Assembly: GCA_947462335.1 (NCBI GenBank)
Contig: OX381716.1
Coordinates: 7,698,861-7,762,860 of the forward strand
Direction of reading: 5' to 3'
Length of the DNA: 64,000 nt
DNA from: Harmothoe impar
Taxonomy: Eukaryota > Annelida > Polychaeta > Phyllodocida > Polynoidae
Shown here: positions 16,701 through 55,129 of the stretch, piece after piece
How positions within the stretch are numbered: the stretch's first letter is position 1
How the letters are laid out: each line of letters starts with the position of its first letter
The notes under the pieces: generated by a model
The model's database searches: none
The model's input: the letters and a program-made list of their open reading frames with translations, nothing else
Told to the model about the DNA's origin: nothing
Program-made: the position numbers and the translations under genes

Positions 16701-16910
16701 CAACATACAGTTGGACCTCAAAACCTCTGGTCCCATAACCACTTATAGAACTCCTACTTATTTTGATTAGAAGTGCATTTAGATAATGACTACTATGTTT
16801 ATTCCGTGCCATCAAATGATCCTTGTTGTGACAGCAAACTAAGCTTTCCTTTTAAAATGAGCTATACTACGCTGAGATGACCATTGAGTAGTTATGGTCA
16901 ATATCAAAGA

Positions 16911-17115
16911 GTTGTGCCTGACAAGGATATTAAATAGCGGTGGCAATCTCTAAACTGTAGTGGTGTACGCAGTCTTACTAAGGCTGAGGGTGTGAGTGGT
17001 CACACGGCTACTTAAGTCACCCACTTCCCCAGTAACGTGACCAGGCAATGTGTGTTTAGGTATAAGCCACACACTGAGTTGGCCCCTGGCTGACTGAGTG
17101 TCACACACAACTAGT
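16911..17115. repeat. Dispersed repeat (partner at 41369)
   Basis: Starts GTTGTGCCTGAC and shares with 41369-41570 a series of blocks in the same order: GTGGTG, GTCACA, TGCTTAAG-like, GTGACCAGGCAA, TGTGTTTAGGTAT and CACACACAACTAG. The copies lie on either side of the giant transposon, about 2 and 3 kb from its ends, in the same orientation. It is an old interspersed repeat. Confidence 0.55.
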
Positions 17116-17226: not shown

Positions 17227-18582
17227 ACTTGTACTCAAGCTATCAGGGTACATAGAACACAGTCTATTACTCTTCCCATTCTTTGTCCTAGTATAGACAC
17301 TGCATTGAGGCTGAAATCAGATTTTTGCCTTTTGGCTAGAAAATATTAAGTGTCAGTCCTATTGTAATTAACTACCCTTGCAGATTTTGTAAAGTGCATC
17401 AGAAATTAGAATTTACAAAATGTATTATTTACCTGAAAAAATGTCTAATACATATCATATATCAAGGGAATCACCATGGTGTAGTAATGATGCCCTTGGA
17501 GTGCATGATTTGTAGAATTCCAGGCTCAATGATGCTCAATGATGCTCAATAATTCTAATGCAAGAACTAAATTGTACAATAAAGTGAGCCAAACTTAACA
17601 CCAGCACTGTGTTACCAATCAGCCCCAATCACCGCAGTCTCACTCTGATCAGCCAATCTCCCACTGCTATGGTCTTCTATTTAGCTGCTTATTAGCATAT
17701 TCATTACATGTAGGGCCTGGTACTATATGTTTATCCTTATGACTGGCTTGCTTAATCACATATAATCAGTACGTCTCGTTCTGTCATCAGTGTCATGGCA
17801 ACTTCCTCTCACCCCAATCACATACAGGTAATCTCCAGTAACACTGTAGGCAGGGTTTTCATAATTTCCTAGTTCTGGGACCATCACATATTCATGAGCA
17901 CGTTTACTAGACACCTTTCATCACTTAACAACTATGTCATCAGCTATGTTACACACTGCCTCTGGACCTTACTGGTCACGTGGATGAAGGGGCAGCTGGC
18001 CACCACACACACAGCCTCAGTCAGACTCTGCGCTCCACTACAGTGTAGAGATCACCACTGCTATATGAGATGCTGGTCAGGCACAACTATGCATTTGCTA
18101 TAGAGTACAAACCATGGATCAGATTCTGAGCATAAAAGGTAAATGGTCACATCAGGGTGTCAGATGCTACAAGTCTTCCACACCGTTTTGACAAGAGTAT
18201 TTTCATGAAGTCCACCAATAAATATTTTTTGACACTAGCTCACCCACTCCTATTGAACCCCCATGACCTAAGCAAAGTATAACTGATGGCACTGAGGATC
18301 ATATCACAATACTGTCATACATTGGGCCACATGCTGAAACCCCATTGTAGCTCTTGTACCTCATCAACACAAATCGGTTACATTTAAAACATTTGAGTCT
18401 GATAATCGGTTTTGCGAACTAGGATAGAATTCCTATATATCCTCCAATTGTCTAGGATAGAAATCGATGATAACAAGTATAGGTACCTTAACTATTATAT
18501 AGTGTGCAACAATGCGCCACTATAAAAAAGAAGGCATCCTATTCTATAGATGAATATTCAACAACAGCAGCACTTCAAATAC

Positions 18583-18828: not shown

Positions 18829-18832
18829 TTGT
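18829..18832. repeat. Left target-site duplication TTGT
   Basis: TTGT directly abuts the left inverted repeat and recurs directly after the right inverted repeat at 38327-38330. A 4-bp match can arise by chance, but it sits exactly where the 96-bp inverted identity stops. Confidence 0.7.
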
Positions 18833-18928
18833 GGCTGTGTCTCATGACCTTGGGCCAATGTTTTTGTCTCTGACCGGGTGCCGTCTCTGACCGGCTGCCG
18901 TCTCTGACCGGCTGCCGTCTCTGACCGG
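18833..18928 (+). repeat. Left terminal inverted repeat (96 bp)
   Basis: A unique 36-bp outer part beginning GGCTGTGTCTCATGACC is followed by four copies of GTCTCTGACCGG spaced 16 bp apart by short GTGCC or CTGCC linkers. Identity with the right end stops after the last CCGG, where the sequences become TTTACAA and CAGTCAG respectively. Confidence 0.95.
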
Positions 18929-19619
18929 TTTACAACAATAACGTCTAAATAGGGGACAAGGAGATTAAAATGTAGTACAGAAGTGGAAATATTTTTCAAA
19001 GGATGGAATAAAGGAATGGAATTTCATTCATTTTTGAGTTAATTCTGTATACTAGTAGTGCAAAAATAACAAAAATAGGCCTATTTTACCCCTGTAGAAC
19101 AGGGTAGATTAAGGTTAACTGAGATAGGAGGTATAGCAGTTGTACATAGTATTGCAAATGAGACGGATTATAGGTTGTCCATATATAACATATATTAAAA
19201 TGTGAACCGATTTCCTTAAAGAAAACAGTAACCCCTAGAATAGGCCTATCCAAAATGGAGTAAAAAGAAGAAGCTACTTTATGTCTCTGACCGGCAGTAT
19301 AATAATCACGTAGAGACACGCAATGAAATCATATAAGTGGTATTTTATTGAACAGAACTGTTCCCAGAACACTTGTATATAAAATTTCAAAAAAATTCTA
19401 CCCAAAAAAAGCATTTATGTCTGCTAATTTTGCCTGCTACCCCTTATACACATGAACAGTGATGTCTCTGACCGGCTAACGAAATTATTTATTGTGGTAT
19501 TAATATTAACATATAAGGTGCATATTCTACATGAATGGAGTGTATATAGTTTTACTCTAATTATCCAATTTAAAAAAAATTTCCATCCCCCCCCCCTTAC
19601 CCACTGATATACTATATGC
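18929..19619. other. Left subterminal region of the transposon
   Basis: AT-rich non-coding sequence holding further single copies of the TIR 12-mer near 19283 and 19462, all in the same orientation as in the left TIR. A C-run follows at 19588. No supportable gene. It is likely binding-site and promoter-upstream sequence (inference). Confidence 0.6.
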
Positions 19620-19779
19620 AGTGTGCGGGTCGCTCAGAGACGTCTGTGACCGGTCTGTACGAGGCGGGAAAACGCTACCTGCACGCCGTCTGGCGGATAT
19701 TTCGGACTTCCGGTCTGTTGGCTTGTTCCCGGCGAAACCAATTCGGCCAGAATTGCCATTCCTACCGGCATCGCACATG
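19620..19779 (+). promoter_or_regulatory. Candidate promoter and 5' non-coding exon
   Basis: A GC- and CpG-rich island in an AT-rich surrounding, beginning with two 12-mer variants (one inverted, one direct) near 19632-19655 and ending at a strong donor (CATG|GTGAGT, donor at 19780). It would be the first exon of the gene whose coding exons begin at 21395. Joining at 21395 in frame with the terminal ATG gives a stop after about 31 codons, so I treat it as 5' UTR. A recognisable copy of part of this region (TGCACGCCGTCTGG..) lies within the inverted repeat at 23012-24255, which supports a functional module rather than random sequence. The TSS is not identified. Confidence 0.45.
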
Positions 19780-21394
19780 GTGAGTTCAAGGGTATTTTAC
19801 CAAATTTCACCCCAATAGTATGCGTTATTTATCAGAGTATCTTATTATATGGTACTGAAGGTGCACAGGAAGGGGCCACGCACCGAATTTTCCTTTCAAA
19901 TAGTGTAAAATTAGAATTTGACCTACGCAAAATCGTTACCCCCAAGGGACTGTTGTTTTTCTGTAAAAGTGAGGCGACGAAACTTTGCCGATCAGAGACA
20001 TACCAGCCCTAAATGATACGATATACAATGGTTGAACATACAAAGGTTTTCACGTCTCTGACCGGAGTCACGCTTTACCCCCAGCCCCCCCCCCCCGCCC
20101 CCACCTTAAGATATCTCACAATTTGTTAATTTTGATTGTTACACAGAATCCACTAAATGTAGACAGAGGCAACCCTATTATTTGGTAATTTGTGGTTCTC
20201 TAGTAAAATAACTATTTTGGCACGGTTAGAAAATACTTTTGAATATCTTCCCCCGCCCCCCCCCCCCCAAAAAAATTCATGGTGGTATATATCATTCATC
20301 AATACACGTGCGCCGTTTATACAAACTGTGGAAATTGATGGTTTTAAATATCTATATTTCTCTAAATAAATAACCCGGGTCCAATGTAAAGTCTTTGACC
20401 GGCACCCATGTGTCAGTGTTATGTACACAAAGTATTACGGAGTGCTCATTTTTTAACAACAGGGGGGGGGGAAATTATTTGTACCCCCCTGAGGGGGGGG
20501 CGGATAAAAAATTTACACCTATCTTGGGGGGGGGGGTCAAAAAATTGTTGTGCCCTAAGCAAGAAATTTTGAATAATATCCGCAATCTGATACGCCTTAT
20601 TCTACATTTTAGTGGTCAACAAGTAATTTTTTTTTTTATGAAAATTCAGGAATAAAATCTCGGAGGGGACAGGTAAAAAACAAAAAAAAAATCGTAGCCG
20701 GATCTGTAATCCAAATTATAAAAATACAACGGCGTTAGGCCACACCGAAAAAAAAAAATGGTCAATGGATTTCAGTTTTCAAAAAATTGTGCGACCCACC
20801 AAAATCTTTTTTTTTTTAAATTTAATTTAGTCAATGGATTTTCTAAACTGGAGCGAGGGACAATTTTTTTTTTTAAACAGCCTCCAACAAAATTCTTAGT
20901 GGACATAAAAGTTGATTGCTTGATCTGGGCCAACAACTGCAAGAACATTTTTAAAAAACAAAAATTTCTCAATGTTTAACAAAATGAGCCAACCTAAATC
21001 TATACTATTTTTTTTTTTCCAAAAATCAACAAATTTCCCATGTAAAAAATATGGTGGGTGAAATCCATTGAGCAAATTTTTTTTTTTGTCTGCCCTTAGG
21101 TCCCCTTTTCTTGGATCGGGTGGCACGGAATTTGGGTTTTAACAAAATTACACAATTTCCCCCCCCCCCCCCCACACAAAAAAATTATAAAAAAAAATAA
21201 AAATTTAATAACCTACTTTCAGAAAACCAATCACGTAAAACTTTCTTTTTTCCGTGTGGCGTTATCCTTAAAATATGGCTCCCGACAGCTAATCCTATCC
21301 ACCCAGTCTCCCCTCCCCCCCTATGTACTGTATATTTGTTTCCAAAAATTATTTTTTATGTAATGTAACTTACATTGCCTTTCACTTTTTGCAG
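19780..21394 (+). other. Candidate intron 1, rich in homopolymer tracts
   Basis: About 1.6 kb between the donor at 19780 and the acceptor at 21393-21394. It contains single TIR 12-mers (about 19994, 20054, 20388), poly-C and poly-G runs (20083-20097, 20252-20268, 20462-20541 clusters, 21160-21173) and many A or T runs of 9-12 bases between 20630 and 21200. A TCAATGGATTT motif occurs at about 20761 and 20831, and inverted at about 21060. No coding evidence. Confidence 0.5.
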
Positions 21395-21419
21395 ATCTAC
21401 CACTATTCTGCAGTTCAAC

Positions 21420-24400
21420 ATGGTGAATTTCCCCTTTCCAACGAACCCCATCCAAGTGCCACCCGACAAATCGCCTATCCCGGATATTGAGGAATGGCTC
21501 GCACTGTACAAGGAATATCGGAAGTTCTTGTCCCCAAGCGACCAGGCCTTGTATCAGGCAGTAAGGCATAACAAGAATTCCCGCAATAGTACAGCCCGCA
21601 AAATGAAAACGGAAAAGGGACGTTAGGCCTTAGCTGCAAACAAGAAGGTAAATTTACGTAAAATTAAAATACAAATTGTAAAATTTAGATTTTCTTGAAT
21701 AAAACTATATTACTAAGTTATGGACCCGTTCATCCATTATCTTTTTTACAGTCAGTGACATCAATACATATTATACACATACAAATATTAAAATCTAAAT
21801 GTTACCCTATTTCTCCAGAAAAATCGAGGGGCGGTAGGGAGTAGCAAGTATGAGACCGACAGGAGTGTTAAGGTGTTAGCACGCAAGCGACAGGCTGAAC
21901 AAGCCAACACCAGCCAACAACCACCACAACGGCGACAATCCCAGCGTGCTGAGAGCTCCACCCCCGCTGACAGTGGTAGTGCTTCACGCCACATCACCTT
22001 GCCAGACCTGCCCGACACCAAGAGGCGGGGGAGAAAACGGGGCCCACCGCTACAACATGACAGCCATGACGACTATGTGCCCCCCCACCCAGAAGCACCG
22101 GTCAACAAACGCAGCCCCCACTTCAGGCCCAACACGGCCAATCGCAGAGGTATTTATTTTGTGGCTATTTAGGTGCTAATTTAGATGCAACATAATATAC
22201 TGATGCAATAATGGCTTGTGGGGAAAGCATGCGTAAGGTACATCTGGCAATAATGAAGGAGCTTAAAAAGGTTGGCTTATCATACAGGTTTTACGGTATT
22301 CCTTTAAGCCCCATGTAATACGTCACAGACACCACACATTAGAACTGCTCTTTCTACCTTCAAAAAATAACTAGTTTTTTTAACTATCCTGGCTGTAGGC
22401 TGTGTCTCACGAACTTGGCCCAATCTTTTTGTCTCTGACCCGGTGCCCTCTCTGACTGGGTGCCTTGTCTGACGAGCTGTCACAAAAAAACTTTTTTTGG
22501 TAGCCTCCCAATTCTCAATGGCTAACGTCTATGACCGGTATATATATGTAACTGCCTCAACTGTTATAAAGTGTCACTTAATATTATTAACTTTCTTACA
22601 GCTCCATCAAAATCATCGGTACCCGATAAACCCAACCCCCCCAAGATCGCTCCACGGAAGTCGGCACCATCTACAGCAGGTACTTATTTTTGGCCTATTA
22701 GATCCAACAATATCTAGGCTGTGTCTCACGACCTCCACCCAATGTTTTTGTCTCCGATAGGCTACAGCAGTAGTGACGTCTCTGACCGTTTCATAAGATG
22801 GGGTATATAGGTAGAAACAAAACTATATAAGGTCTGCTTTATACGCCATTCCATTATGTATTATAGTACTGTTTGTAGAAAATTTTGTAAAAGTAAAATC
22901 CCCCCGCCCCCTTCGTACAAATATACTATGTACATTTTGGGGCCGGTCAGAGACGTATCTCACCAGGGTTGGAGTGGCTGGAAAAGGGCACCTGCACGCC
23001 CAAGCTCCCACCATTTCCACCTCGTTTCCCGAGCGTCATCCCTGGCACCAAACGTTCCTGCTCAAAGTAGTTCCTGTGCGCTTGGTGCTGTTCCATTAAA
23101 AGTGCAGATGGGTACCGCGTGCAAATCCCCCCCAATATACGGGGGAAGTGATGCGGTGATGGCCTCCTAAATACCACCGATGTCCCTCCCACGCGTCCAA
23201 GCGCAAATTGCGGCCAGCTTGCTGCACGCCGTCTGGGGGATAATACGGACGTCCTGTCATTGCGCTTGTTCGCCCCAAACCTATTTGCTGGTGTACCGTC
23301 TGTGGTCTCTGACCGGTTGCCGTCTCTGACCGGGTGCCGTCTCTGACTGGGTGTAACAAATGATTTAAAAAGTAATCAAGTAGTACTATCTAAGTTATAA
23401 TCTTAACAATTTAACTTCTTTTAAAGCTACCCGATCAAGCTGTGCTAATTCTTCACAACCAGGACTCAAAAAAGGTGTAAGCAAGTCCACATCCGCAGTG
23501 ACAAGTGCTTCAAAGACAGGTAATATACAACTATTCATATTCTTTGATATTATTTATATCCTGCTTTTTGTAAGCGTAACCATTTCAAATTATCTAAGGT
23601 CGTTACTCATGCGCTAACAGCTTCTTATTCAGGTCATTGTTTGTTGCACGCCTCCCCATCAACAAATAGTACTATCAGACTTCTAATGTTTACAATTTAA
23701 CTTCTTTTAAAGTTACCCGATCAAGCTCGCGTAATTGTTCACAACCAGAAACGAAAACAGGTCGAGCACAGTCAAAATCCAACAGCGGCGACTCCCCACG
23801 TAAGTACAGTGTTACATTGTTTAACACAATTCACTAAAAGTTACTGACTTAAGAAATGTCAACTCAAGCTGGCCCCAACTCCAATCATTTGTTACACCCC
23901 GTCAGAGACGGCACCCGGTCAGAGACGGCAACCGGTCAGAGACGGCAACCGGTCAGAGACCACAGACGGTACACCAGCAAATAGGTTTGGGGGGGAACTA
24001 GCGCAATGACCGGACGTCCGTATTATCCCCCAGACGGCATGCAGCAAGCTGGCCCTAACTCGCGCTTGGACGCGTCCGAGGGACATCGCTGGTATTTAGG
24101 GGGCCATGACCGCGTCACTTCCCCCGTATATTGGGGGGGATTCCTACGCGGTACCCATCTGCACTTTTAATGGAACAGCACCTAGCGCACAGGAAATATT
24201 TTAACTAGCAGCCTTTGGTGCCAGCAATGAGGCTCGGGAAACGAGGTTGAGGTGGTGCGAGGTTGATCTCAACTTTCCACCGCAGGTGACGTCTATCACC
24301 GGCTATTATAATCTACATCCCAGGCCCCTTGTAACTTTCAATACCATAGAAGTTGGGTTTCCATAAAGATTTAATTTTAATTCTCTTCTTTCAAACACTG

Positions 24401-25351
24401 ACTTTGGTAACAGTGCTGACATAGCAATCATTGTCATTCTCAAAATCGTTTTCGGGTGACCCCTGGAGGGTCTGGAAATTGAACACCCTCAACCCCTTTC
24501 ACCTATAGTATTGCGGTGGTTTTGGGGGTAAAAATGGGCAAATTTCTGTAATTTTGCATTCCGTAGAAGGTGTTTCATTAAAGAAGTGGGAATATTTTAA
24601 ATCACTTATTAAAAACACACACTTTGGTTAGGGCCAACCTCTCTGACCGCTATAGTTTGTTCTTTCTTCAGCTCCAAAGAAGAAAATAAAACAGGAGGTG
24701 ATACTGCCGCTAGGATTGTCCTGCATGCCCACGCCTCCTGCTCCGGTGCAAGAGCTAACTGAGGAGGACTTTGCGTTATTGGCAGGATGCCGCTCCCCCA
24801 CACCGCTCATGAGCGACGAGTTCTCGGACTCCGAGTCTGTGTCGTCCCGCAATCTCTATGAGGTGTCCAGTAGGTGAGTACTGCTCATTGGTTACATATT
24901 TGTGGTTTTGCTTTTAAGTTTTAACAATGACGAACAATTTCCCAGCATGTCTTCATTTTACTATTAAGTGTACTGATATTGGGTGTTTTAAGGGAGAGTT
25001 TGTGGGCACGTTTTTAAGGGAATTTTTCACTACATCTTTAAAGCACTTTTACTTAAATCAAACCTGTAATATAACATATATGGGGAGCTGCAGGGTTGCA
25101 GCGTTTCCTTACAGTAGGATGCCAATAGCCTGGAGACTTTTTAAATAACCTGGAGAGAAACACAACTTTTCCTATTAATGTTCCCATCCCCTTTTTGCGG
25201 GTTGTTTGGAGGTTACAACATGTAGGTATTTACTTGGAATTAATAATGAGCCTATTTGATATTTTATTACAGGACCAGGTCCAATGATATCATGTCGGAG
25301 TATCGTCATGATCCGGATGAAGTGATCTGCCTGTGGCGGATGTGGCATTAG
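21420..25351 (+). CDS. Multi-exon transposon gene (AT-hook-like, acidic C-term), in-frame stop
   Basis: Seven coding exons, all with GT-AG borders and compatible phases: 21395-21647 (ATG at 21420), 21819-22149, 22602-22679, 23427-23519, 23713-23799, 24672-24873 and 25273-25351 (stop TAG 25349). Phases run 0,1,1,1,1,2, which is hard to obtain by chance. The product would be about 300 residues. It has an N-terminal segment with E-E-W-L-A-L-Y-K-E-Y, a basic Gln/Arg region with an AT-hook-like KRRGRKRGP, Ser/Lys-rich short exons, a KKKIKQE basic patch, an acidic DEFSDSESVSS stretch, and a last exon ending W-R-M-W-H. One in-frame TAG (21624-21626) interrupts exon 1 seven codons before its donor, so this copy is broken or relies on readthrough. 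I do not recognise the family. A nuclear DNA-binding accessory protein of the element is the likeliest reading. Confidence 0.6.
22398..22482 (+). repeat. Degenerate solo copy of the left TIR in an intron
   Basis: Begins GGCTGTGTCTCACGA and follows the left TIR almost base for base (outer part, then three imperfect GTCTCTGAC repeats) with several substitutions. It lies in the intron between 22149 and 22602 in the same orientation as the left TIR, as a relict of an older insertion or an internal duplication. Confidence 0.8.
22717..22766 (+). repeat. Second degenerate TIR fragment
   Basis: Begins GGCTGTGTCTCACGACC and keeps the CCAATGTTTTTGTCTC part of the TIR before diverging. It lies in the next intron (22680-23426), same orientation. 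A further 12-mer follows at about 22778. Confidence 0.8.
23012..24255. repeat. Large internal inverted repeat (about 350-bp arms, 533-bp centre)
   Basis: The left arm (about 23012-23357) is matched in reverse complement by about 23891-24255. By eye the arms are nearly 90 percent identical, with small gaps. Inner ends carry three and four GTCTCTGACCGG-type repeats and end in GTGTAAC / GTTACAC. The arms also contain a copy of the candidate 5' exon at 19.6 kb (TGCACGCCGTCTGG). The centre holds two short coding exons (23427-23519, 23713-23799). The structure could be a nested non-autonomous derivative or a palindromic duplication of the element's control region. Confidence 0.85.
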
Positions 25352-25429
25352 GAGAATCATGAAGAAAACTGAAACATACTGAACATAGTGGCTTCTAAAG
25401 AGTAACACTAGAAATCACAGTGTACATAA

Positions 25430-27110
25430 ATAACCTCTAATTTCTCATCTATATTGTTTTAAAGGAAACTGTATTTATTTAGTGAGGTACTGAACTAGTT
25501 TTTGACGTAAAGAGAAGGCATGTGCCATGGCCGGTCAGAGACATCACATTGGCGTTCTGATGTCTCTGACCGGTTCACAATTGATCATGTTTAGCTTGAT
25601 AAATACATAACAAGTTGTGGGTAATGTTTATCTGTATCGTGTAAGTTGTTTTAAAGGAAATTCCATGTATTTATTGAGCTCCTTAACTAGTTTTTAAGGT
25701 AAATAGAAGGCATGTGCCATGGCCGGTCAGAGACATCACATTGCCATTGTGATGTCTCTGACCGCTTAAGAATTTCTCATATTTAGGTGCATAAAAACAG
25801 AACAAGTCGTGGGTAATGTTTATGTGTATGGTGTATATTATTTTAAACGAAAATCCATATATTTATGAAGGTGCTTAACTAGTTGTTAAGGTAAAGAGAA
25901 GGCATGTGCCATGGCCGGTCAGAGACATCACATTGCCATTGTGATGTCTCTGACCGCTTAAGAATTTCTCATATTTAGGTGCATAAAAACAGAACAAGTC
26001 GTGGGTAATGTTTATGTGTATGGTGTATATTCTTTTAAACGAAAATCCATATATTTATGAAGGTGCTTAACTAGTTTTTAAGGTAAAGAGAAGGCATGTG
26101 CCATGGCCGGTCAGAGACATCACATTGGCGTTCTGATGTCTCTGACCGGTTAACAATTGATCATGTTTTGGTTGATAAAAACATAACAAGTTGTGGTTAA
26201 TATTTATGTGTATGGTGTATATTCTTTTAAATGGAAATCCATGTATTTATGAAGGTGCTTAACTAGTTTGGAAGGTAAAGAGAACACATGTGCCATGGAC
26301 GGTGAGAGACATCACATTGGCTTTCTAATGTCTCTGACCGCGTAAGAATTTATCATATTTTCGTGCATGAAAACATAACAAGTCTTGCTTAATGTTTATG
26401 TGTATCGTGTATATTCTTTTAAAGGAAATCCGATTTATTTATTAAGGCCCTTTAAGGTAAAGAGAACGCATGTGCCATGGCCGGTGAGACACATAACACT
26501 GGGGTTCTGATGTCTCTGACCGGTTAACAATTTATCATATTTTGGTTGATAAAAACAAGAAGTAATGGGTAATGTTTATGTTTATCGTGTATATTGGTTG
26601 AAAGGAATTTCAATTTAGTTATGAAGGTGCTTACCAAATTTGTAATGTAAATAAAAGGCATGGGGGATCGCCGGTCAGAGACATGACATTGGCGTTTTCA
26701 TGTCTCTGACCGGTTAAGACTTTCTCATATTTACCTTGATAAAAACATAAGAAGTCGTGGGTAATGTTTATGTGTATCGTCTATATTGGTTTAAAGGAAA
26801 TTTCCATTGACTTATTTAGGTCCCCCATTACTTTTTAAGGTAAATAGAAGGAAAGGGTGATGGCCGGTCAGAGACATCACATTAGCGTTGTCATGTCTCT
26901 GACCAATTAACACTTTCTCATATTTCCCTTCATGACCACATAAGAAATGTTTGGTAATGATAAGTTTCTGTTCTATATTGTCTAAACAAGAATCCAACGA
27001 TTTATTGAGGTCCTCTCCTCGGTTTGAAGGTGAATTTAATTGATTTTTTATTGCCGGTCAGAGACATAACTTTGGGGTTGTGAGGTGTGACCGTTTGACA
27101 TGTTGATATA
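25430..27110. repeat. Tandem array, about 190 bp x 9, each with an inverted pair of 12-mers
   Basis: The conserved core CCGGTCAGAGACATCAC starts at 25531, 25723, 25915, 26107, 26299, 26481, 26671, 26863 and 27053, with steps of 182-192 bp. In each unit it is followed about 28 bp later by the inverse GATGTCTCTGACCGG, so every unit can form a hairpin and presents the TIR 12-mer in both orientations. Copies toward the right are more degenerate. It lies between the two coding blocks of the element and has no coding capacity. Confidence 0.9.
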
Positions 27111-27945
27111 TTTTGATTGATAAGCGGAATAAATATTTGTAAGTGGTGTACTAGTGTCAGGTAAATACAAGACCTCTCAATTAGGCAGTACTACAGCTCC
27201 CAGTTTGTCCAGTATATACAAAAACAGCATGTGATTTATAACCGGTTTGATTATAAAATGTTGCAGCTGTTATTGAGGTAATCATCAATAGTATCATGTG
27301 ATGAATCTACAATGATGTTTACAAAGATTACCCATCCCGTTTTTGTGGTGGAACTGTAATTTATACCGTGGTGATGGCATGTACATGCGTTACAAACTTT
27401 TAGTATGTAGGTAAACTGCGTTTTAATGAATACAAACTAATTGGTTATGTTTAGTGCCGTGTAACATGATCAACAATTTGTCTTTCTATGAATGTGAGTT
27501 CACTTTTAATTGCATGAAAGGCTTTCCCAAAGGTACATTGTTTGGTTGGAATGGAAATCATTTATTGTTGGTCATATTATCTAAAAAAGGCAATAATAAA
27601 CGGGTAATAAATCATTTATTTCATCCCTCATACCAGTGTTACTGTATTGATTGACTAAATCATTTGCAAATCACCATTTATATGACACTGCACCAATAAT
27701 ATCTTCTGTTTGTATTGACTAGGGTGGAGGATAAACCTACTTAGCCCTTGAAATTAACGCAATATTTGAACATGTAATTACCATCTGAAATTCTGTTATA
27801 ATTTCTTCACATTTACAGTCTACAGCTATCACTCTGCAAAGAATGAAATTATTAAAAAAGCTTAAGCTAATATTGTTCGACATGAATTTGAATATTATTA
27901 TAAATTGTAAATTTTTTTTCCCCATTACTTTTAAACAATTTACAG
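27111..27945. other. Non-coding spacer before the long frame
   Basis: AT-rich, without TIR 12-mers or repeats I can recognise. A 66-codon frame at 27454-27654 has no supporting features. It ends in a strong acceptor: a run of T and C from about 27910 followed by TTTACAG at 27939-27945. Confidence 0.55.
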
Positions 27946-29944
27946 TCCGCCTCTACGCTTGAAGCTGGGTAAATTGATAATGGAACACAGACTTCAGAAA
28001 CATGGTCAGAAGGTCCAATGTACCACTACACCAGCTTCATCAGCTGACTTGGAAGCAGATGAAGACAGTGACATGGGTAACGTTAGTTATGGTTCACCTG
28101 TAGAAAGTGATTCTTCGGACTTGAGGCCTGTCATTGATCTGACACAATCCATCAAGATAGAACCAAATCAAGATGTGCCTTCCTCCAGGGAGGTTTTGAA
28201 AGAGGTAAACCAGTACACAGATGACCCCCAACAAATTAAAAGGTTATGGCACATGTGGCATGACCATACTGAACATGAAGAAGCCAAACAAGCTGACACA
28301 GGTAACACCAACGACATGGACATCCCCACAGAGTGCTCCAACCTCAATGCGACTACCGCCGAAGAAGCGTTACAGCCTCAAGTGGGTGTTCACGTTCAAG
28401 AAGCAAGAGACGTTGACACAGCCAACACCAACGACATGGACATCCCCACAGAGTCCTTCAACCTCGATGCGACTACCAAAGAAGAAGCCTTACAGCCTCA
28501 AGTGGCCGTTGACGTTCAAGAAGCAAGACGGCTTGACACAGCCAACACCAACGACATGGAAACAGATGAGGACAGTGACATGGGTAACGTTAGCTATGGT
28601 TCACCAGTAGAAAGTGATTCTTCGGACTTGAGGCCTGTCATTGATCTGACACAATCCATCAAGATAGAACCAAATCAAGATGTGCCTTCCTCCAGGGAGG
28701 TTTTGAAAGAGGTAAACCAGTACACAGATGACCCCCAACAAATTAAAAGGTTATGGCGCATGTGGCATGACCATACTGAACATGAAGAAGCCAAACAAGC
28801 TGACACAGGTAACACCAACGACATGGACATCCCCACAGAGTGCTCCAACCTCAATGCGACTACCGCCGAAGAAGCGTTACAGCCTCAAGTGGGTGTTCAC
28901 GTTCAAGAAGCAAGAGACGTTGACACAGCCAACACCAACGACATGGACATCCCCACAGAGTGCTCCAACCTCAATGCCACTACCGCCGAAGAAGCGTTAC
29001 AGCCTCAAGTGGCCGTTCACGTTCAAGAAGCAAGACACGCTGACACAGCCAACACCAACGACATGGACGTCCCCATAGAGTACTCGAACCTCGATGCGAC
29101 TACGGCAGAAGAAGGGTTACAGCCTCAAGTGGCCGTTGACGTTCAAGAAGCAAGACACGCTGACACAGCCAACACCAACGACATGGACGTCCCCACAGAG
29201 TCCTCGAACCTCGATGCGACTACGGCAGAAGAAGGGTTACAGCCTCAAGTGGCCGTTGACGTTCAAGAAGCAAGACACGCTGACACAGCCAACACCAACG
29301 AGATGGACATCCCCACAGAGTCCTCGAACCTCGATGCGACTACGGCAGAAGAAGGGTTACAGCCTCAAGTGGCCGTTGACGTTCAAGAAGCAAGAGACGC
29401 TGACACAGCCAACACCAACGACATGGACATCCCCACAGAGTCCTCGAACCTCTATGGGACTACGGCAGAAGAAGGGTTACAGCCTCAAGTGGCCGTTGAC
29501 GTTCAAGAAGCAAGACACGCTGACACAGCCAACACCAACGACATGGACATCCCCACAGAGTCCTCGAACCTCGATGCGACTACGGCAGAAGAAGGGTTAC
29601 AGCCTCAAGTGGCCGTTGACGTTCAAGAAGCAAGACACGCTGACACAGCCAACACCAACGACATGGACATCCCCACAGAGTGCTCGAACCTCGATGCGAC
29701 TACGGCAGAAGAAGGGTTACAGCCTCAAGTGGCCGTTGACGTTCAAGAAGCAAGACACGCTGACACAGCCAACACCAACGACATGGACATCCCCACAGAG
29801 TCCTCGAACCTCGATGCGACTACGGCAGAAGAAGGGTTACAGCCTCAAGTGGCCGTTCACGTTCAAGAAGCAACAGACCCCGTTCTTGTTGAAGGGCGTA
29901 CAGATCATGAAGAATTCTTCAGCATTGAAGAGTATACGGCATAA
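27946..29944 (+). CDS. Acidic repeat protein, N-terminal part of the long frame
   Basis: It opens at the acceptor TTTACAG/T (27945/27946); the first internal ATG is at 27980. Residues include E-D-S-D-M-G-N-V-S-Y-G, the SUMO-consensus-like S-I-K-I-E-P and a Y-T-D-D-P-Q-Q-I-K-R-L-W-H-M-W-H block, which resembles the last exon of the upstream gene (Y-R-H-D-P-D-E-V-I-C-L-W-R-M-W-H). A 507-bp segment (28055-28561) is duplicated in tandem (28562-29068). From 28801 to 29880 run exactly nine 120-bp units encoding 40 residues each (D-T-A-N-T-N-D-M-D-I-P-T-E..), very similar to one another. It stops at TAA 29942 but the same frame continues downstream. Exon 24672-24873 ends in the phase required here. 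No known domain; likely disordered and acidic. Confidence 0.6.
28801..29880 (+). repeat. Coding minisatellite, 120 bp x 9
   Basis: Nine consecutive 120-bp units (40 codons) with few substitutions, such as variants of the P-T-E-S-S-N-L segment. Two more units lie in the preceding duplicated block at 28292-28531. The low divergence points to recent expansion or homogenisation. The unit length is a multiple of three, so the frame is kept and a second frame also stays open by chance. Confidence 0.9.
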
Positions 29945-32638
29945 TTTGTTGAATATTGTACATATCCACAAGATGGAATATCCACTTCACCTGTACAAAT
30001 GGATAACCTGCCAAATGTATTACATGATGATATGGATACAGCATCTCTTACTATGCAGAACCCCTTACAAGCAAACAGTGATTTGGAAATCACCGTTTCC
30101 CCCTACAGTGGTACCTCTTCAGAGGAGGAGGAGGTGCAAGAATTCAATTTTAATCTATCATGCAGCCCATCTTCTTCCAGTAATGAAAGTGAGTCAACAG
30201 AGACCAGCCAATGTGCTTCCCAGTCTTCACAGCAGGATGAGCTTCACACAGGGACACAAGTACAAGAGAATAGTTGTGGGGTGATGAAGACAGAGTCGTT
30301 GGAGGTGGATGGTAGCAGCGCAGAAGAAAGGTTACTGGCTCAAGTGGGGGATAGCGTTGAAGAAGGAACAGACCTTGAGAGTGGCAACACCAACAACATG
30401 GAGACGACTAGCCAAGTAGCAGACAATACTGATGGGTTGGAGTCACCGGAAGTATTGGCACAGATCCCGAAGGAGTCATTGGAGGTGGATGCTAGCAGCG
30501 CAGAAATAAAGTTACTGGCTGAAGTGGGGGATAGCGTTGAAGAAGCAACAGACCCCGAGAGCGCCAACACCAACAAGATGGAGACGTGTAGCCAAGTAGC
30601 AGACAATAGTGATGGGTTGCAGTCACCGGAAGTATCGCCACAGATCCCGACGGAGTCGTTGGAGGTGGATGCTAGCAGCCCAGAAAAAAGGTTACTGGGT
30701 GAAGTGGGGGATAGCGTTGAAGAAGGAACAGACCCTGAGACAGGCAACACCGACAAGATGGAGACGTCTAGCCAAGTAGCAGACAATACTGATGGGTTGG
30801 AGTGACCGCAAGTATCGGCACAGATGCTGACGGAGTCGTTGGAGGTGGATGCTAGCAGCGCAGAAATAAAGTTACTGGCTGAAGTGGGGGATAGCGTTGA
30901 AGAAGCAACAGACCCCGAGAGCGCCAACACCAACAAGATGGAGACGTGTAGCCAAGTAGCAGACAATAGTGATGGGTTGCAGTCACCGGAAGTATCTCCA
31001 CAGATCCCGACGGAGTCGTTGGAGGTGGATGCTAGCAGCCCAGAAAAAAGGTTACTGGGTGAAGTGGGGGATAGCGTTGAAGAAGCAACAGACCCTGAGA
31101 CAGGCAACACCGACAAGATGGAGATGTCTAGCCAAGTAGCAGACAATACTGATGGGTTGGAGTCACCGCAAGTATCGACACAGATGCTGACGGAGTCGTT
31201 GGAGGTGGATGCTAGCAGCCCAGAAGAAAGGTTACTGGGTGAAGTGGGGGATAGCTTTGAAGAAGCAACAGACCCTGAGACAGGCAACACCGACAAGATG
31301 GAGACTTGTAGCCAAGTAGCAGACAAGAGTGATGGGTTGGAGTAACCGGAAGTATCAGCACAGATCCCGACGGAGTCGTTGGAGGATGATGGTAGCAGGC
31401 CAGAAGAAGGGTTACTGGCTCAAGTGGGGGGTAGCTTTGAAGAAGCAACAGACCCTGAGAGCGCCAACACCAACAAGATGGAGACATCTAGCCAACAACC
31501 ACGCAATAGTGATGGGTTGCAGTCAACGGAAGTATTGGCACACATCCCAACGGAGTCGTTGGTGGATGGTAGCAGCGCAGAAGAAAGGTTACTGGCTCAA
31601 GTGGGGGATAGCGTTGAAGAAGGAACAGACCCTGACACTGGCAACACCGACAAGATGGAGAAGTGTAGCCAAGTAGCAGACAAAAGTGATGGGTTGGAGT
31701 CACCGGAAGTATCGGCACAGATCCCAACGGAGTCGTTGGAGGATGATGGTAGCAGGCCAGAAGAAGGGTTACTGGCTCAAGTGGCGGGTAGCGTTGAAGA
31801 AGCAACAGACCCTGAGAGCGCCAACACCACCAAGATGGACACATCTAGCCAACAACCAGTCAATAGTGATGGCTTGCAGTCAACGGAAGTATTGGCACAC
31901 ATCCCGACGGAGTCGTTGGTGGATGGTAGCAGCGCAGAAGAAAGGTTACTGGGTGAAGTGGGGGATAGCGTTGAAGAAGGAACAGACCCTGAGACTGGCA
32001 ACACCGACAAGATGGAGACGTCTAGCCAAGTAGCAGACAAAAGTGATGGGTTGGAGTCACCAGAAGTATCGGCACAGATCCCAACGGAGTCGTTGGAGGT
32101 GGATGGTAGCAGGGCACAAGAAAGGTTACTGCCTCAAGTGGCGGGTAGGGTTGAAGAAGGAACAGACCCTGAGAGCCCCAACACCAACAAGATGGAGACG
32201 TCTAGCCAACAAGCAGGCAATAGTGGTGGGTTGGAGTCACCGGAAGTATTGGCACAGATCCCGACGGAGTCGTTGGAGGTGGATGCTAGCAGCCCAGAAG
32301 AAGTGTTACTCCCTCAAGTGTCAATTACCATTGTAGAAGGAACAGACCCTGAGAGTGGCAACACCAACAAGATGGAGACGTCTAGCCAAGTAGCAGACAA
32401 TACTAATGGGTTGGAGTCACCGGAAGTATCGGGCAAGATCACAACGGAGTAGTTGGAGGTGGATGGTAGCAGCCCAGAAGAAGCGTTACTCCCTCAAGAG
32501 CCCGTTAGGGTTGAAGAAGCAACTCAGGGTGAATCCCCAAATACAGATGACAACAGTGCTGTAAAGTACACGGTATTTGTTTATGAAAATGAGGAGGACG
32601 TAACCTCTTCGGAAGAGTCTGTGTTTGAAAGGGCGTGA
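29945..32638 (+). pseudogene. 60-residue-repeat segment of the long frame, broken by stops
   Basis: The same frame as the segment before and after it. It begins after TAA 29942 (an ATG at 29999 could restart) and holds about 12.5 copies of a 177-183 bp unit from about 30290 to 32536. Each unit encodes a Thr/Pro-x-E-S-L-E-V-D-x-S-S motif, an L-x-x-V-G-D-S-V-E-E-A-T-D-P-E block and an N-T-N-K-M-E-T block. Three stops inside the array (TGA 30803, TAA 31343, TAG 32450) fall at TCA or TCG Ser codons of the unit, each explained by one substitution. A fourth (TGA 32636) separates it from the transposase-like part. Very acidic, probably disordered; no known domain. It may be translated in pieces, read through, or dead. 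Confidence 0.6.
30290..32536 (+). repeat. Coding minisatellite, about 180 bp x 12.5
   Basis: ACGGAGTCGTTGG or a close variant recurs at about 30290, 30470, 30650, 30830, 31010, 31190, 31370, 31550, 31727, 31907, 32084, 32264 and 32444. Two units are 177 bp, having lost one Glu codon. Higher-order similarity is visible: the unit pair at 30470-30829 is repeated almost exactly at 30830-31189. Confidence 0.9.
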
Positions 32639-32659
32639 CGGTATGAAGGATTGGGAAAA

Positions 32660-32892
32660 ATGGCTAACGTGAATAGTAGTTCCCAGCACATGACACACTC
32701 TACGGAAAGCCTCTGTCCAGAGTGGGTGGAGAACCCCGAACACCAAATTGATTTAGAGAAGATAGATTCTCGCGATTCTTCCGAAAGTAACAACAAAGTT
32801 GAAGATCCACTACAATTACCGAGTTTAGACCTTTGCCCTGCATGGGTTGAGAATCCCTATATGAGTTTTGGTCCTACGGAAATTTATCAGAG

Positions 32893-32923
<31 letters not shown>

Positions 32924-35620
32924 CACCAAACACTATGCCCTGTGTGGGTAGAGAATGCCATACACGATTTTTTACTATCAGAATGTGAGACGTTGCCGTG
33001 TGACGATAATTCCAGTGGATGTCCTACGTGGGTAGAACATGCGGAACACGACTATGACACAGAGAGTAGCCACTCCAATGACATATCGCATCATTCCACA
33101 GGATGTCCTTCGTGGGTGGAAAACGCTGATCACAACGGTGATACTGACAGTACCAACTCGAATCAGATGTCAAATGACATCTGTGATGTGTGTCCCGTTT
33201 GGGTTGAGCTCCCCCTTAGGGGTTCCTCCGACGAGGAGAAATCTTCCAGTTCAAAAGCATCCCCACTTTATGAAAACACAAATGATGAATCGGAAACCCA
33301 ACACGGTAACTTAGGTGATGGAGAAGGTGCATCTGGTAGACCTGACAAAGAAGCTCTTAATGATGCACTATTTGGGCAGACTTTGGAGTTCCTGGAAGAT
33401 GTTGGTGCCCCTGAACCTGAAGAACAAGTGAAGAAGGCAATACATCTGTTTGAAATAGTCAATCAAATAAAGTATTCTTCTTTAGAAGCGAAGAAGGACA
33501 TGTTCAGCGAGCGGGTGGGTGCAGCGCGAGTAAGATACGCTCAAAAGGCAGCAATAGCGAAAGCTATACATCTTTCCCGTAAAGCAGTGTTCCCCAACAA
33601 GAAACCACCAAAGGAGGAGGGCTCTCGTCGACGCATGGCTGACTATAAGCGCCGTGCTGTCGACGAGTTCCTGAGACGGAGTGATAACAGCTACACCCTG
33701 CCGGATAAAAAGTACTACCGGAAAGATCTGGGCGTCCCCATCGTTGCGCTAGTCGACTGCATGCGTAACCTACACCGCAAGTTCGTCGTGGAGACGGGCT
33801 TGGCGCTGTCCTTTGCTACCTTCTGCAAAGCAAGGGACAAGCGCACCGTGAAGACTTCGGTCTTCCTTAAACGGTCGGTCTGCCTCTGCAAACCACACGC
33901 CAACATAGGGATGATGCTCGAGGCTGTGGACGGCTTGCCAAACCGCACCTCTGAGCTGGTACTTTTGTCCGACCAAGAAATAGACTCTGCCCTTGACAAA
34001 CTCCCGGGAGATATGGTCAAGTTCAAGATGTGGGACAAGGAGAAGAGGTGGTACGCAACGTCCGCAAACAAAAAGCCCCGGCCCGTATTTCACACCATTC
34101 TGTCGAAGCAGTGTATCAGCAAGAAGGACTTCATTACCAAATTCAAAATTGATTTAAAGACTTTTAGGGAACATCAGGCACGTGTCGAAGCTCAATATTC
34201 TGCAATTAAAGATCTAAAAGAAAACCTCCCAGAAAACCATGTTGTGTGCCAAATGGATTACGCCGAGAATTGGTGCACCTCCTTCCTTGCCGAGATCCAG
34301 TCAGCGTTTTTCGGGAAAGACCAGCTTACACTCCATCCAATGGTGCTGTATACCCGACTTCCTGAAAACCTACCTTCTGACCCCCAACCCGAAGACCCTA
34401 AGGTGAAACTGACTAACTTCAACTACGTTGGAGTTACTAGTGTGAGAAACCACAAGTTCCCAACCACTTTTTCATTCCTCTCTCTTCTCATTGTTAAAAT
34501 CCGTCAAATACTCCCTTCCGTTGAACACCTCCATCTTGTCACGGACTCTCCATCATCCCAATATAGGAATCGCTTCGCCTGTGAAATGATGCGTAGGGCC
34601 GCTGCCATCTTCGGCATAGGCATCAGCTGGAACTGGCTGGAGGCGGGCCATGGGAAGGGGCCATGTGATGGGATTGGGGGGGCCATTAAAGGTATGGCGG
34701 ATAGATCTGTGAAGTCCTGTGGTGCCATACAAACGGTCGACGAGTTCATCGAAGTGCTCCAACCACAAACAGTCAAGCTGACTCTGCTCAAAGGGGAGAA
34801 GGAGGTCATCGCTGCAAATGAGGAGGAGATTTCCAAATGGAAAAGTGGGGATGTGCATGGTATCCTTTCAGCCCACCACGCCACTGTGTACAAGGACGAG
34901 CTCTATTTGCGGGAGACCTCTTGTTACAGGTCATGCTGCTTCAGGGACGATCTGAGACCGATGTGCCCGGAGTGGATCCTGTGCCCAAGACATGAACCTA
35001 CTGCTCCCAAGAAGAAGAAGAAGAAGCCCCCTGCTGCTACTGACAAACCTGAAAGGCCCCAAATTCCATCAGGAGATGATGCAGAAGAGGAGAGTGACAG
35101 CGGGGAAGGACCATCACACATCGAGCAGGTGGTGGGGTGTGACGAGGCAGGAAGTGGGGAGGAACCGTTTTCGAGTGATGCAAACGAACAGTTGGACACC
35201 GTACATAACACTCACCGCACCACCATCAAAAGGGAACGTCTCAGCCAAATGACTATGAGGTTTGCACTCAGGAAACAGCGAGAACGTGACGCGGCCAAAA
35301 TAGTTTCACAAAATGAAATACCAACATCTTCACAGGAGCAAGTGAATCTCCCTTCCACTTCAGGAATATCATATGACAGCGAGAGCGATGAGGATGAAGA
35401 GGAGAGCTGTCTGTCGGTTCCAAATGCGAGGGATAAGGCTTGTGACGAGCGGATAGCTAGGGAGAGGAGGAAGGGTAATTTCGTCAACGACTTGCTTGAA
35501 GACGGGGCGTTCACTTCTGGAGACGATTGGCCATTGGCTGACAATGTGACCCTCCAGCGATTCAAGGAATTGGGCCTACATCTCAACCGCGAGAAATCTC
35601 CTCCTGCAAACCAGGAATGA
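32660..35620 (+). CDS. DDE-like transposase candidate with CPxWVE repeats
   Basis: About 986 residues from ATG 32660 (the frame itself is open from 32639, in register with the upstream segments). The N-terminal 190 residues carry six C-P-x-W-V-E motifs in acidic linkers, including a run of ten Asp at 32893-32922. A seventh related C-P-E-W lies near residue 769. A basic helical region follows. The core has V-C-Q-M-D-Y-A-E-N-W (D533), T-D-S-P-S-S-Q-Y-R-N (D629) and L-E-A-G-H-G-K-G-P-C-D-G (E661, H664, D670), preceded by strand-like segments, as expected of an RNase H-like fold. The same motif set occurs in a multi-copy family of uncharacterised invertebrate proteins (my recollection, not checked). 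The C-terminal part is charged with a poly-Lys patch. Position inside perfect TIRs supports a transposase role. This ORF itself has no internal stop. Confidence 0.7.
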
Positions 35621-35809
35621 TCCTTTTGTGTAGATATAAATATATCATGATTTTGGGGAAATGTCATTCACTGGGGGTGATTTTCCAGAGGGTGGGGTGT
35701 TTCAGTGGGTGTGCATTGAAGGCATTAAGTATTTGGGCATTTTGCTCCTATTGTGGGGTAGATAAAGGTTTACTGTTTATCCCGTTGACATATGGCACCC
35801 ACTCACATT
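35621..35809. other. Short spacer after the transposase-like gene
   Basis: Non-coding sequence between the TGA at 35618 and the 155-bp array. No polyadenylation hexamer occurs right after the stop; AATAAA-type hexamers first appear within the array (near 36101), which could serve as the 3' end (inference). Confidence 0.4.
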
Positions 35810-36590
35810 TGGCAGCCCCTCAAATATGTGATTCCGTCACATACATAGTCATTGGGGCGACATGGAAACAGACGGTTTATGATTATTTGAGAACCGTCTC
35901 TGACCGTTCATAGATAGAAAGAGACGTTTCATTATGAAGAGAAGAAATGCAAAAGTGTCTCTGACCCTTTATATATGTGATGCCGTCACATACATAGACA
36001 TTAGGGCGACATGGAAACAGACTGTGAATGATTATTTGTTAAATGGAGAACCGTCTCTGACCGTTTATAGATTGAAAGACACGTTTCATTATTGAGAGAA
36101 TAAATGCAAAAGCGTGTCTGACCCTTGATATATGTGATGCCGTCACATACATACACATGGGGCACACATTGAAACAGACGGTGCATGATTATTTGTTATG
36201 GAGAACCGTCTCTGACCGTTTATAGATTGAAAGACACGTTTCATTATTAAGAGCAGAAATGCAGAAGCGTCTCTGACCCTTTATATATGTGAGGCCGTCA
36301 CATACATACACATGGGGAGCACATTGAAACAGACGGTGCATGATTATTTGTTATGGAGAACCGTCTCTGACTGTTTATAGTTTGAAAGACACGTTTCATT
36401 ATTAAGAGAAGAAATGCAGAAGCGTCTCTGACCCTTTATATATGTGAGGCCGTCACATACATACACAGCGTTAATGATTTGTAAAAAAATGGAGAACCGT
36501 CTCTGAGCGTTTATAGATTGAAACACAACTTTAATTATTACAGAGGAATTGCAGAAGCGTCTGTGAGCCTTTAAATATCTCTACAATGAG
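35810..36590. repeat. Tandem array, about 155 bp x 5, with TIR 12-mer variants
   Basis: CCGTCACATACATA recurs at about 35834, 35983, 36140, 36295 and 36450 (steps 149-157). Each unit holds one GTCTCTGACCGTTTATA and one GTCTCTGACCCTTTATA, both in the left-TIR orientation. The last unit is truncated and diverged. Non-coding. Together with the 190-bp array it supplies most internal copies of the 12-mer. Confidence 0.85.
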
Positions 36591-36660
36591 GGGTTTAAAA
36601 GTATATGCTGTGTATATAAGAGCTTTGCCGGTTATATTTGTATTTAGTATAGTGAAGGTG

Positions 36661-36873
36661 ACCACGCCCCCTTATATAGCACACTCTGACGCAGGGGTCA
36701 TGCTAGTGTGCTTTTCACCCACTTGGTGGGAGGTGGGTGCTCGCTAAGGAAGCCGCAGCGTGAACCACATTTGCATTGAAAAGCAAGTTTGAGAACATGT
36801 TTTTGTTGAAATGTGTCTTCTTTCCAGGAAATTAAAGTATCTGTGCATAAAACATACTGGATGTCTCTTTTTT
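36661..36873 (+). promoter_or_regulatory. GC box plus TATA-like box, possible short transcription unit
   Basis: CCACGCCCC (36662-36670) is followed at once by TTATATAGC (36672-36680). Downstream is a locally GC-richer stretch with a self-complementary AGCACACT/AGTGTGCT pair, and a run of six T at 36868-36873. The spacing would fit a promoter for a roughly 160-nt transcript or for an outward-reading RNA. I do not recognise an RNA family, and the whole may be coincidence. Confidence 0.25.
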
Positions 36874-38230
36874 GAATTTTTACCAATAATTGTGGAAGTC
36901 TATGACCGGCAACAGGGCTTAAGGAAAAATGAAGTCTCTGACCGTTTATTGCTATTCAGTAAAACTTTATAAAAAGTATCTAGAAATTTTTAAATAATAA
37001 ATTTTTTAATTATGCTGACACTTTCATACTATGCGCAAAGATCTATGTGAACATTAGTTCTTATATAGTAAAATATATATATTTTTTTAATCATACCAAT
37101 TAAAAAATTTAAAAAGTAAAAAAAGGGTATTACACACTTATTTTTTTATACTTAAACCACACGTATTTAAGGAACTTCCAATACGGTATTATATTAACGC
37201 AATACCATTATTCACTTAGATTTTTTTTTTAACAAGATAGTTCAACGAATAGATAGGTTTCCCTTCAATTACATATACCTGTGTCACGTCTCTGACCGGC
37301 ATGAGGATAAATGAAATGTGATGTCTCTGACCGTTTGCTACTAATTCAAGTAAAACCCTTTAAAAGGTATCTATATATTTTTTTTTATCCCAGTATTAAT
37401 TCTACACTCACTTGGATACTATTGGAAAGGATCTATGTCAATATAGTAATGTTAGCAATTTTTTTGGTTGCCATAAATAATTATGCAATTTAAAAAACAA
37501 CAAAAGGAGGAAACTAGGTTTTTTTCTATACATTTTATTAGAGTGAAACAACACGCATAAAAAAAAAAGTAAAATCAGTTTCATATTAAAGCAATGGGAA
37601 GTTTCAGTCATATTTAATGAATAAGCACACACTTAAACGAATACATGTTTCCGTGCATTTACATATATGGCTGTGATGTCTCTGACCGCTTCAGCATTCA
37701 TTAGGGATTCAGGTGATGTCTCTGACCGGCAGCACGAGTATATTCATCGGTCTGTAAGGGAGCAAATAATAGCAATTTCATGACTTGAATACCTTACATA
37801 CTTACTTTAGGCACCACAACACTTTACCTATTCAGGATTAGATGAAAGAATTAACAGCCGCTCGTTTAAAATTGAAATCTAAATTCCCTTTTTCAAAACA
37901 TCATGATATGTTACATTTCACAGAATTTCCAACACTTGGGATAATTACATTTTTACATTTAAGGAATGTTGTGTAAACATTGACATGTGTCCCCCCTTCA
38001 CAGAGCAGCCTTATTTTTTCCGGAACCCCAGATTGAATTTTGCTAACCATATTTGGCCCTTTTGTTGTTGCCGGTCAGAGACATCACTTTCGGACTACAC
38101 TTTTCTTCTAACAACTCCATCAGGGTAATTACAATTATATAACAACCAGCATAATTTTTAAACAAATCCGTATATATATCACAATATTAAAAAATTAAAA
38201 AAATTACAAAAAAACTACTTTTACTGACTG
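36874..38230. other. Right subterminal region of the transposon
   Basis: Very AT-rich non-coding DNA with scattered 12-mers, mostly in pairs about 35-40 bp apart: about 36898 and 36933, 37287 and 37322, 37676 and 37717, and an inverted one at about 38070. Runs of A or T of 8-10 bases are common. No supportable gene. Confidence 0.6.
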
Positions 38231-38326
38231 CCGGTCAGAGACGGCAGCCGGTCAGAGACGGCAGCCGGTCAGAGACGGCACCCGGTCAGAGACAAAAACA
38301 TTGGCCCAAGGTCATGAGACACAGCC
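38231..38326 (-). repeat. Right terminal inverted repeat (96 bp)
   Basis: Exact reverse complement of 18833-18928 by eye: four CCGGTCAGAGAC units, then the outer part ending GGTCATGAGACACAGCC at 38326. Confidence 0.95.
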
Positions 38327-38330
38327 TTGT
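38327..38330. repeat. Right target-site duplication TTGT
   Basis: Matches TTGT at 18829-18832, immediately outside the right TIR. Confidence 0.7.
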
Positions 38331-55125: not shown

Positions 55126-55129
55126 CTAA

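Follow-up and report, generated by a model that had tools for sequence, protein, structure and literature searches.

Does a 19.5-kb segment of the Harmothoe impar genome, framed by long terminal inverted repeats (TIRs) and a repeated TTGT word, represent a DNA transposon, and if so, does its enzyme belong to a superfamily that already has a name? We analysed a stretch of 64,000 nt (GCA_947462335.1, OX381716.1, 7,698,861-7,762,860, forward strand; hereafter the window), in which the segment occupies 18829..38330, both TTGT words included. It very likely belongs to a young, autonomous-type animal family of cut-and-paste DNA transposons, in which gene 2 would supply a DDD transposase and gene 1 a helper protein, and the enzyme probably falls within the named superfamily Sola. 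The borders are made up as follows:

18829..18832, no strand: left copy of the target duplication, TTGT, read in the sequence and by comparing the flanks of full-length copies
18833..18928, + strand: left TIR, 96 bp, beginning GGCTGTGTCTC and closing with a 17-bp unit repeated 3.7 times (18866-18928)
38231..38326, - strand: right TIR, the exact inverse of the left, with the iterated 17-bp unit at 38230-38293
38327..38330, no strand: right copy of the target duplication, TTGT, read in the same way

The TIRs are 100% complementary across 96 bp, identity stops abruptly at either edge, and TTGT lies beside both ends, so that the borders stand as first drawn in the original prediction. A chance match of the ends is ruled out by the 96 identical bases.

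Searching the host assembly (1.51 Gb) with the TIR, we found six more full-length copies of 20.7-21.5 kb, giving seven with the window copy (19.5-21.5 kb), all with the termini GGC..GCC. The full-length copies are nearly identical, and short elements of 300-400 bp that retain both ends are also present. The 30-bp flanks differ among the seven full-length copies, which rules out a segmental-duplication artefact. An exact 4-bp duplication flanks six of the seven, and the seventh matches at three of four bases. Among 26 other places, one has no partner end, while the 25 paired copies carry an exact 4-bp duplication in 17 cases, three matching bases in six, two in one and a single matching base in one, where the choice of partner end is doubtful. 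When lengths of 2, 3, 5 and 6 bp were tried on the same 25 copies, an exact match appeared at length 2 alone, twice. Neither of the two outcomes named at the outset as fatal to the prediction, the lack of any further copy or flanking duplications of random length, was seen, and a 4-bp duplication, as originally proposed, holds. TTGT as a fixed target does not: the 23 exact duplications comprise 18 distinct tetramers, 14 of the form NTAN, with TTAA once and with words that are not AT-rich such as AGGT, CTCA and TGGT. An empty site, also suggested at the outset as something to look for, was found in paralogous form for one copy, in the adjacent repeat unit. Borders, copies and 4-bp duplications together support the identification as a DNA transposon.

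The transposase is encoded in the right half of the element:

32660..35620, + strand: gene 2, transposase, 986 aa, intact frame (ATG 32660, stop 35618-35620), from ORF reading and comparison of copies
34232..34780, + strand: RNase H/integrase-like catalytic core by predicted fold, residues 528-710 of ORF 32651-35620
34256..34258, + strand: D536, putatively catalytic, D in 161/161 sequences
34544..34546, + strand: D632, putatively catalytic, D in 160/161 sequences
34667..34669, + strand: D673 within HGKGxxDG, putatively catalytic, D in 158/158 sequences

Given the RNase H/integrase-like core and the conserved D536, D632 and D673, we take gene 2 to encode a DDD transposase, with catalysis inferred from these sequence features. 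The protein had been described as DDE-like; its transposase character was upheld, while conservation gives D rather than E as the third catalytic residue. Between residues 633 and 710, one column alone exceeds 60% E, at 664, where 134 sequences have E and the rest include A in 17, G in 3 and V in 2. By sequence, the PDB gave no informative match to the transposase, and Foldseek with the whole model gave none at E<=0.001 (best E 0.012). The resemblance of the core comes from structural re-alignment after Foldseek, in which some similar families may be missing; with retroviral integrase cores such as PDB 1cxu it shares the fold alone, at 13% identity. Comparing the transposase gene of the window copy with that of another copy (C10) gives 15 nonsynonymous and five synonymous codon differences, and recent constraint among copies is therefore unsupported.

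On placement, we lean towards a new family within Sola, a superfamily said to go back to Bao et al. 2009. The parts of the published descriptions available to us give Sola a DDD transposase, 4-bp duplications, lengths mostly of 2-9 kb with some >15 kb, and TIRs of very variable length, 11-1124 bp (PMC10741241), and give Sola2 AT-rich 4-bp duplications (AWWT; ATAT, AAAT, ATTT) and an 888-aa transposase (PMC3627910). Compared with these descriptions, the H. impar family agrees in its D-D-D triad, its 4-bp duplications, its length and its 96-bp TIR. Against the AT-rich Sola2 targets the picture is mixed, with 14 of the 23 exact duplications of the form NTAN but others, such as AGGT, CTCA and TGGT, not AT-rich. 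Its transposase family is spread over animals, with sources named as molluscs, lancelets, echinoderms, insects, a coral and a rotifer, and is for that reason likely to be in Repbase already. In contrast, Sola has also been reported from bacteria (PMC10741241, as far as the available part goes), whereas pattern-based scans of a bacterial and archaeal contig collection confirmed no relative; a search of a viral contig collection was likewise without result. The 17-bp iteration within the TIR, the motif copies inside the H. impar element and its gene for acidic repeats go unmentioned in those same parts of the Sola descriptions.

That the element instead represents an unnamed DDD superfamily widespread in animals seems unlikely to us. 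Such a reading draws on Pfam, where the window transposase matched no family at E<=0.1 even though its family is widespread in animals, and where, in a set of 44 members (A1, window included), four families each matched a single member at E<=0.01, none of them a transposase model. A further Pfam search gave no useful match among the 25 families listed out of 34. The reading also draws on the literature searched, in which no paper links HGKGP with a transposase. The missing Pfam match says little, however, because several of the superfamilies in Repbase are not known to be covered by a Pfam model, and the general features agree with Sola. Equally unlikely is the fuller form of this reading, in which an animal-wide superfamily would carry two genes, the transposase and a giant, spliced acidic-repeat helper in frame with it across a single stop, and use dozens of internal motifs as a recruitment scaffold for 20-kb transposition.

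Descent from some other named superfamily (Academ, or Chapaev/CMC, Ginger, Kolobok or piggyBac) is less likely still, although their duplication lengths are compatible. Academ X makes a 3-4-bp duplication. Chapaev, an animal cut-and-paste transposon with non-autonomous derivatives, shares a 3-4-bp duplication but is described, in the part available, with 5'-CAC..GTG-3' termini and with C(2)C and H(3-4)H between the second D and the last E (PMC4079192); the H. impar element has GGC..GCC, and CxxC..HxxxH between D2 and D3 occurs in 0 of 157 sequences, so we rejected Chapaev/CMC membership. Kolobok, whose hosts include animals, has a 4-bp duplication and 5'-RR..YY-3' termini that GG..CC satisfies, yet its duplication is given as TTAA only, with C/DxxH between the second and last catalytic residues, and piggyBac is likewise TTAA-specific (both from the part of PMC9587614 available); with TTAA in one of 23 duplications and C/DxxH in four of 157 sequences, we set both aside. 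Ginger, with 4-6-bp duplications and 5'-TG..CA-3' termini in the available part of PMC10741241, fits in duplication length but not in its termini, and membership was likewise rejected; as for its gypsy-type integrase, the window protein has no integrase-core Pfam match at E<=0.1, yet its fold resembles integrase cores.

We return to the family as a probable member of Sola to consider its second gene, which lies upstream of the transposase. An intron-rich gene had been anticipated here, and comparing copies resolved seven exons with GT-AG introns and consistent phases:

21420..21647, + strand: exon 1, ATG 21420, with an in-frame stop at 21624 in the window copy (copy comparison)
21819..22149, + strand: exon 2 (copy comparison)
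22602..22679, + strand: exon 3 (copy comparison)
23427..23519, + strand: exon 4, within a stretch duplicated around exon 5 at 82% (copy comparison)
23713..23799, + strand: exon 5 (gene model)
24672..24873, + strand: exon 6 (gene model)
27946..32638, + strand: exon 7, acidic repeats of 40-aa and 60-aa units, to TGA 32636 (gene model and C10 comparison)

The TGA at 32636 is common to the window and C10 copies. Ahead of it, five stops interrupt the frame in the window copy, which may for this reason not be autonomous. The stop in exon 1 was not found at that place in two other copies, and those in exon 7 (29942, 30803, 31343 and 32450) are missing in C10; wherever gene 1 was read in other copies, it is open. 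Decay of the whole element is argued against by the intact transposase frame and by the lack of these stops at the same places in the copies read. No homologue of gene 1 was found among 166 proteins compared locally, and the repeat units give no clear sign of constraint from their sequences (pN/pS was 1.51 among the twelve 60-aa units compared and 0.66 among the ten of 40 aa).

In C10, exon 7 and the transposase lie in one frame, separated by the equivalent of TGA 32636 alone, and the window has the identical TGA between its two genes, which raises the doubtful prospect of a single translation unit with partial gag-pol-like read-through of that codon. However, an ATG follows the window TGA by 24 nt, the nearest relative (P0001) starts with a similar N-terminal stretch, a shared frame arises by chance one time in three, and the frame relation was read in two copies only.

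Repeat arrays, also part of the original prediction, are present within the element as tandem arrays with periods of 192, 120, 180 and 155 bp, and all 41 occurrences of the motif GTCTCTGACCG in the window fall inside the element. The main repeat features are:

22398..22479, + strand: 82 bp of intron 2 that repeat the left end in diverged form, at 85% (self-comparison)
22717..22757, + strand: 41 bp of intron 3, a second diverged repeat of the left end, also at 85% (self-comparison)
23001..24265, no strand: inverted repeat within the element, its arms (23001-23353 and 23912-24265) matching at 90% and each bearing an array of the 17-bp TIR motif at its inner end
25450..26925, no strand: 192-bp unit repeated 7.7 times in tandem within intron 6, with six palindromic pairs of the TIR motif (repeat and motif scan)
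35824..36467, no strand: 155-bp unit repeated 4.2 times in tandem, downstream of gene 2 and containing TIR motifs (repeat and motif scan)

We rejected the end copies at 22398 and 22717 as whole nested elements, since a search of the window yielded no right end to pair with either; both could be remnants of earlier left ends. A search for the iterated motif in viral contigs was without result, Rfam and tRNA scans were empty, and a promoter scan did not rise above shuffles.

This element is unusual in how large it is, in the number of end-motif copies it carries inside and in having a long, repetitive gene for a putative helper. To our knowledge, few full-length animal cut-and-paste elements of about 20 kb with near-identical copies are known, which makes this family a good test case for how long DNA is paired and moved. 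That large size, described at first as rare, signals novelty is not supported, because a 20.5-kb multi-exon CACTA element of soybean, Tgmt* (PMC2613891), and Sola elements >15 kb (PMC10741241) are already described in the available parts of these sources. Tgmt* is similar in its length of about 20 kb, its many exons, its pairing of a transposase with a spliced accessory protein and its reiterated short sites near the ends. By the same partial account, En/Spm and Tgmt* differ in having 13-bp CACTA termini and a 3-bp duplication, against 96-bp GGC..GCC ends, 4 bp and a transposase without the CMC motif in H. impar.

We suggest that the transposase would recognise the 96-bp ends, the inner portion of which repeats a 17-bp site with the core GTCTCTGACCGG; the bases GTCTCTGACC of the 17-bp unit are a putative part of the recognised site. 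The two ends would be paired and the element cut out, then inserted at a new target across a stagger of 4 bp and with a preference for NTAN, and gap repair would leave the 4-bp duplication. The motif copies that recur tens of times in introns and spacers, along with the gene 1 protein, probably gather or regulate the transposase, an arrangement that may be likened to TNPA and the subterminal sites of En/Spm; internal end-motif copies and a spliced repeat protein in the transposase frame make direct predictions on recruitment. The elements of 300-400 bp with both ends would be mobilised in trans.

The original prediction of two 96-bp ends that are exact inverse copies held, with 18833-18928 and 38231-38326 matching perfectly; TTGT occupies the four bases outside each end, where identity stops and the next bases differ, and a 17-bp unit in 3.7-3.8 copies makes up the inner two thirds of each TIR. 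When the 96-bp end was searched against the host assembly (1.51 Gb in 736 contigs, with 40 of 566 first-look candidates scored), we found at least 47 matches. The second copies proposed as a check on the element were recovered: counting the window copy, at least seven facing end pairs delimit elements of 19,494, 20,999, 21,539, 21,038, 21,038, 20,662 and 21,453 bp. For the six full-length copies outside the window, we retrieved the flanking sequence and read the left and right 4-bp words.

Flanking words (left/right) of the seven full-length copies
Window element: TTGT/TTGT
C10: AGGT/AGGT
C7: TGTA/TGTA
C4b: CTCA/CTCA
C4a: TTAT/TTAT
C3: TTCT/TCCT
C2: CTAT/CTAT

The duplication is an exact 4 bp in six of these seven copies, with three of four bases alike in the other. 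Among the 26 remaining full-end places, also retrieved, 25 gave end pairs (303-382 bp in 24 cases and 3,387 bp in one) and only L027 had no partner end found. The 4-bp words flanking these pairs agreed exactly in 17, at three of four bases in six, at two in one and at one in one, and when alternative lengths of 2, 3, 5 and 6 were tried on the 25 pairs, exact matches appeared at 2 only, in two pairs. Of the 23 exact duplications, 18 have T at position 2, 16 have A at position 3 and 14 read NTAN, an excess (binomial 6e-11) measured against the window TA frequency of 0.073 and ignoring the local AT-richness of the surroundings.

Copy C2 lies within a local tandem repeat, and its flanks, joined with a single CTAT, align to the adjacent repeat unit over 49 bp ungapped at 90%, with CAAT at the place matching CTAT, so the insertion added the element plus 4 bp. 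The empty site that had been called for is available as a paralogous repeat unit, not as an orthologous empty allele. This empty site, the TIRs, the DDD integrase-like core and the 4-bp duplications favour a cut-and-paste mechanism in which the target is cut with a 4-bp stagger; the excision step is inferred.

Over the 0.4-1.5 kb read, end sequences of the other six full-length elements match the window at 98.0-99.8% identity. The C10 transposase region agrees with the window at 99.3% across aligned positions and contains in-frame insertions, one of 3 bp and one of 84 bp. C4a and C4b, of equal length, lie 123 kb apart on contig C4 in opposite orientation and differ in flanks and duplications; judged by length, position and flanks, they look like a local jump.

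Upstream of the transposase gene, six exons of gene 1 (21420-24873) splice in consistent phase into the frame starting at 27946. In the window copy the spliced frame is interrupted once in exon 1 and four times in exon 7, ahead of the TGA at 32636. The exon-1 stop is a sense codon in C7 and C4b, where exons 2-4 are open with conserved splice sites (the aligned part lacks exon 1's opening bases and does not take in exons 5 and 6 in full). Exon 7 of C10 has 1,544 open codons up to the TGA equivalent to 32636, after which the transposase follows in frame with exon 7. Given these open frames in C7, C4b and C10, comparison at the sequence level makes it very likely that the predicted gene is real and that the window copy is damaged. 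Its exon-7 product consists of acidic repeats with 40-aa and 60-aa units and, by eye, the putative SUMO-related motifs VIDLT, IKIE and IKQE; no relatives of gene 1 were found among 166 proteins compared locally. The five nonsense changes in the window (21624, 29942, 30803, 31343 and 32450) are absent from the copies read there, and the exon-7 frame holds phase throughout, a ratio of stops to frameshifts that is odd for plain decay.

All 41 occurrences of the end motif GTCTCTGACCG in the window (0.00 expected) fall within the element, in TIRs, introns and spacers and never in exons. The 9-mer GTCTCTGAC occurs 49 times inside the element and nowhere else in the window, and the shorter 8-mer TCTCTGAC has 51 of its 54 occurrences there. 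Six motif pairs form palindromes, 29 bp apart, in a 192-bp array, two diverged left-end copies lie at 22398 and 22717, and 23 short copies differ among themselves in how many units each end carries. By analogy, the internal sites and gene 1 may play a part like that in En/Spm, in which TNPA reportedly works through subterminal motifs (PMC2613891).

For CMC/Chapaev, Kolobok, piggyBac and Ginger, the element lacks at least one published defining feature of each. Sola features described in PMC10741241 and PMC3627910 fit the element, compared by description. From these comparisons, we consider the element a new family of unusual architecture, probably within Sola. Bivalve transposons include Sola1, Sola2 and Academ, according to PMC10294476. 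C-terminal modules differ among transposase relatives (P0029, P0049, P0117-P0119 and P0131) and include PF02902, as well as stretches that by eye are PHD-like and Tudor-like, with PHD matches in 4 of 26.

Elsewhere in the window, a Helitron at 59446-63968 (-) has ORFs matching Helitron_like_N (2e-32), PIF1 (1e-22) and DUF6570 (1e-10) in Pfam. Close beside its genes are a NADAR-domain ORF (8e-25, Pfam; 57164-58694, -) and an adjoining ORF that is SGNH/GDSL-like by eye and has no Pfam match, both possibly Helitron cargo. At 50556-55126, a 553-aa ORF whose DUF6589 match is sub-threshold (0.0054) lies between inverted repeats of 128 bp, 83% alike. This is perhaps an older DNA transposon; inspection by eye of the repeat edges showed no clear flanking duplication. 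A 512-aa ORF at 46811-48349 (+), with no Pfam match, carries coding repeats of 12 aa (36 bp) and 31 aa (93 bp). A tandem array at 55895-56904 has 5.3 copies of a 189-bp unit (96% matches), and an interspersed repeat of about 150 bp has three copies, 73-81% alike, at 16906-17063, 17951-18124 and 41332-41510.
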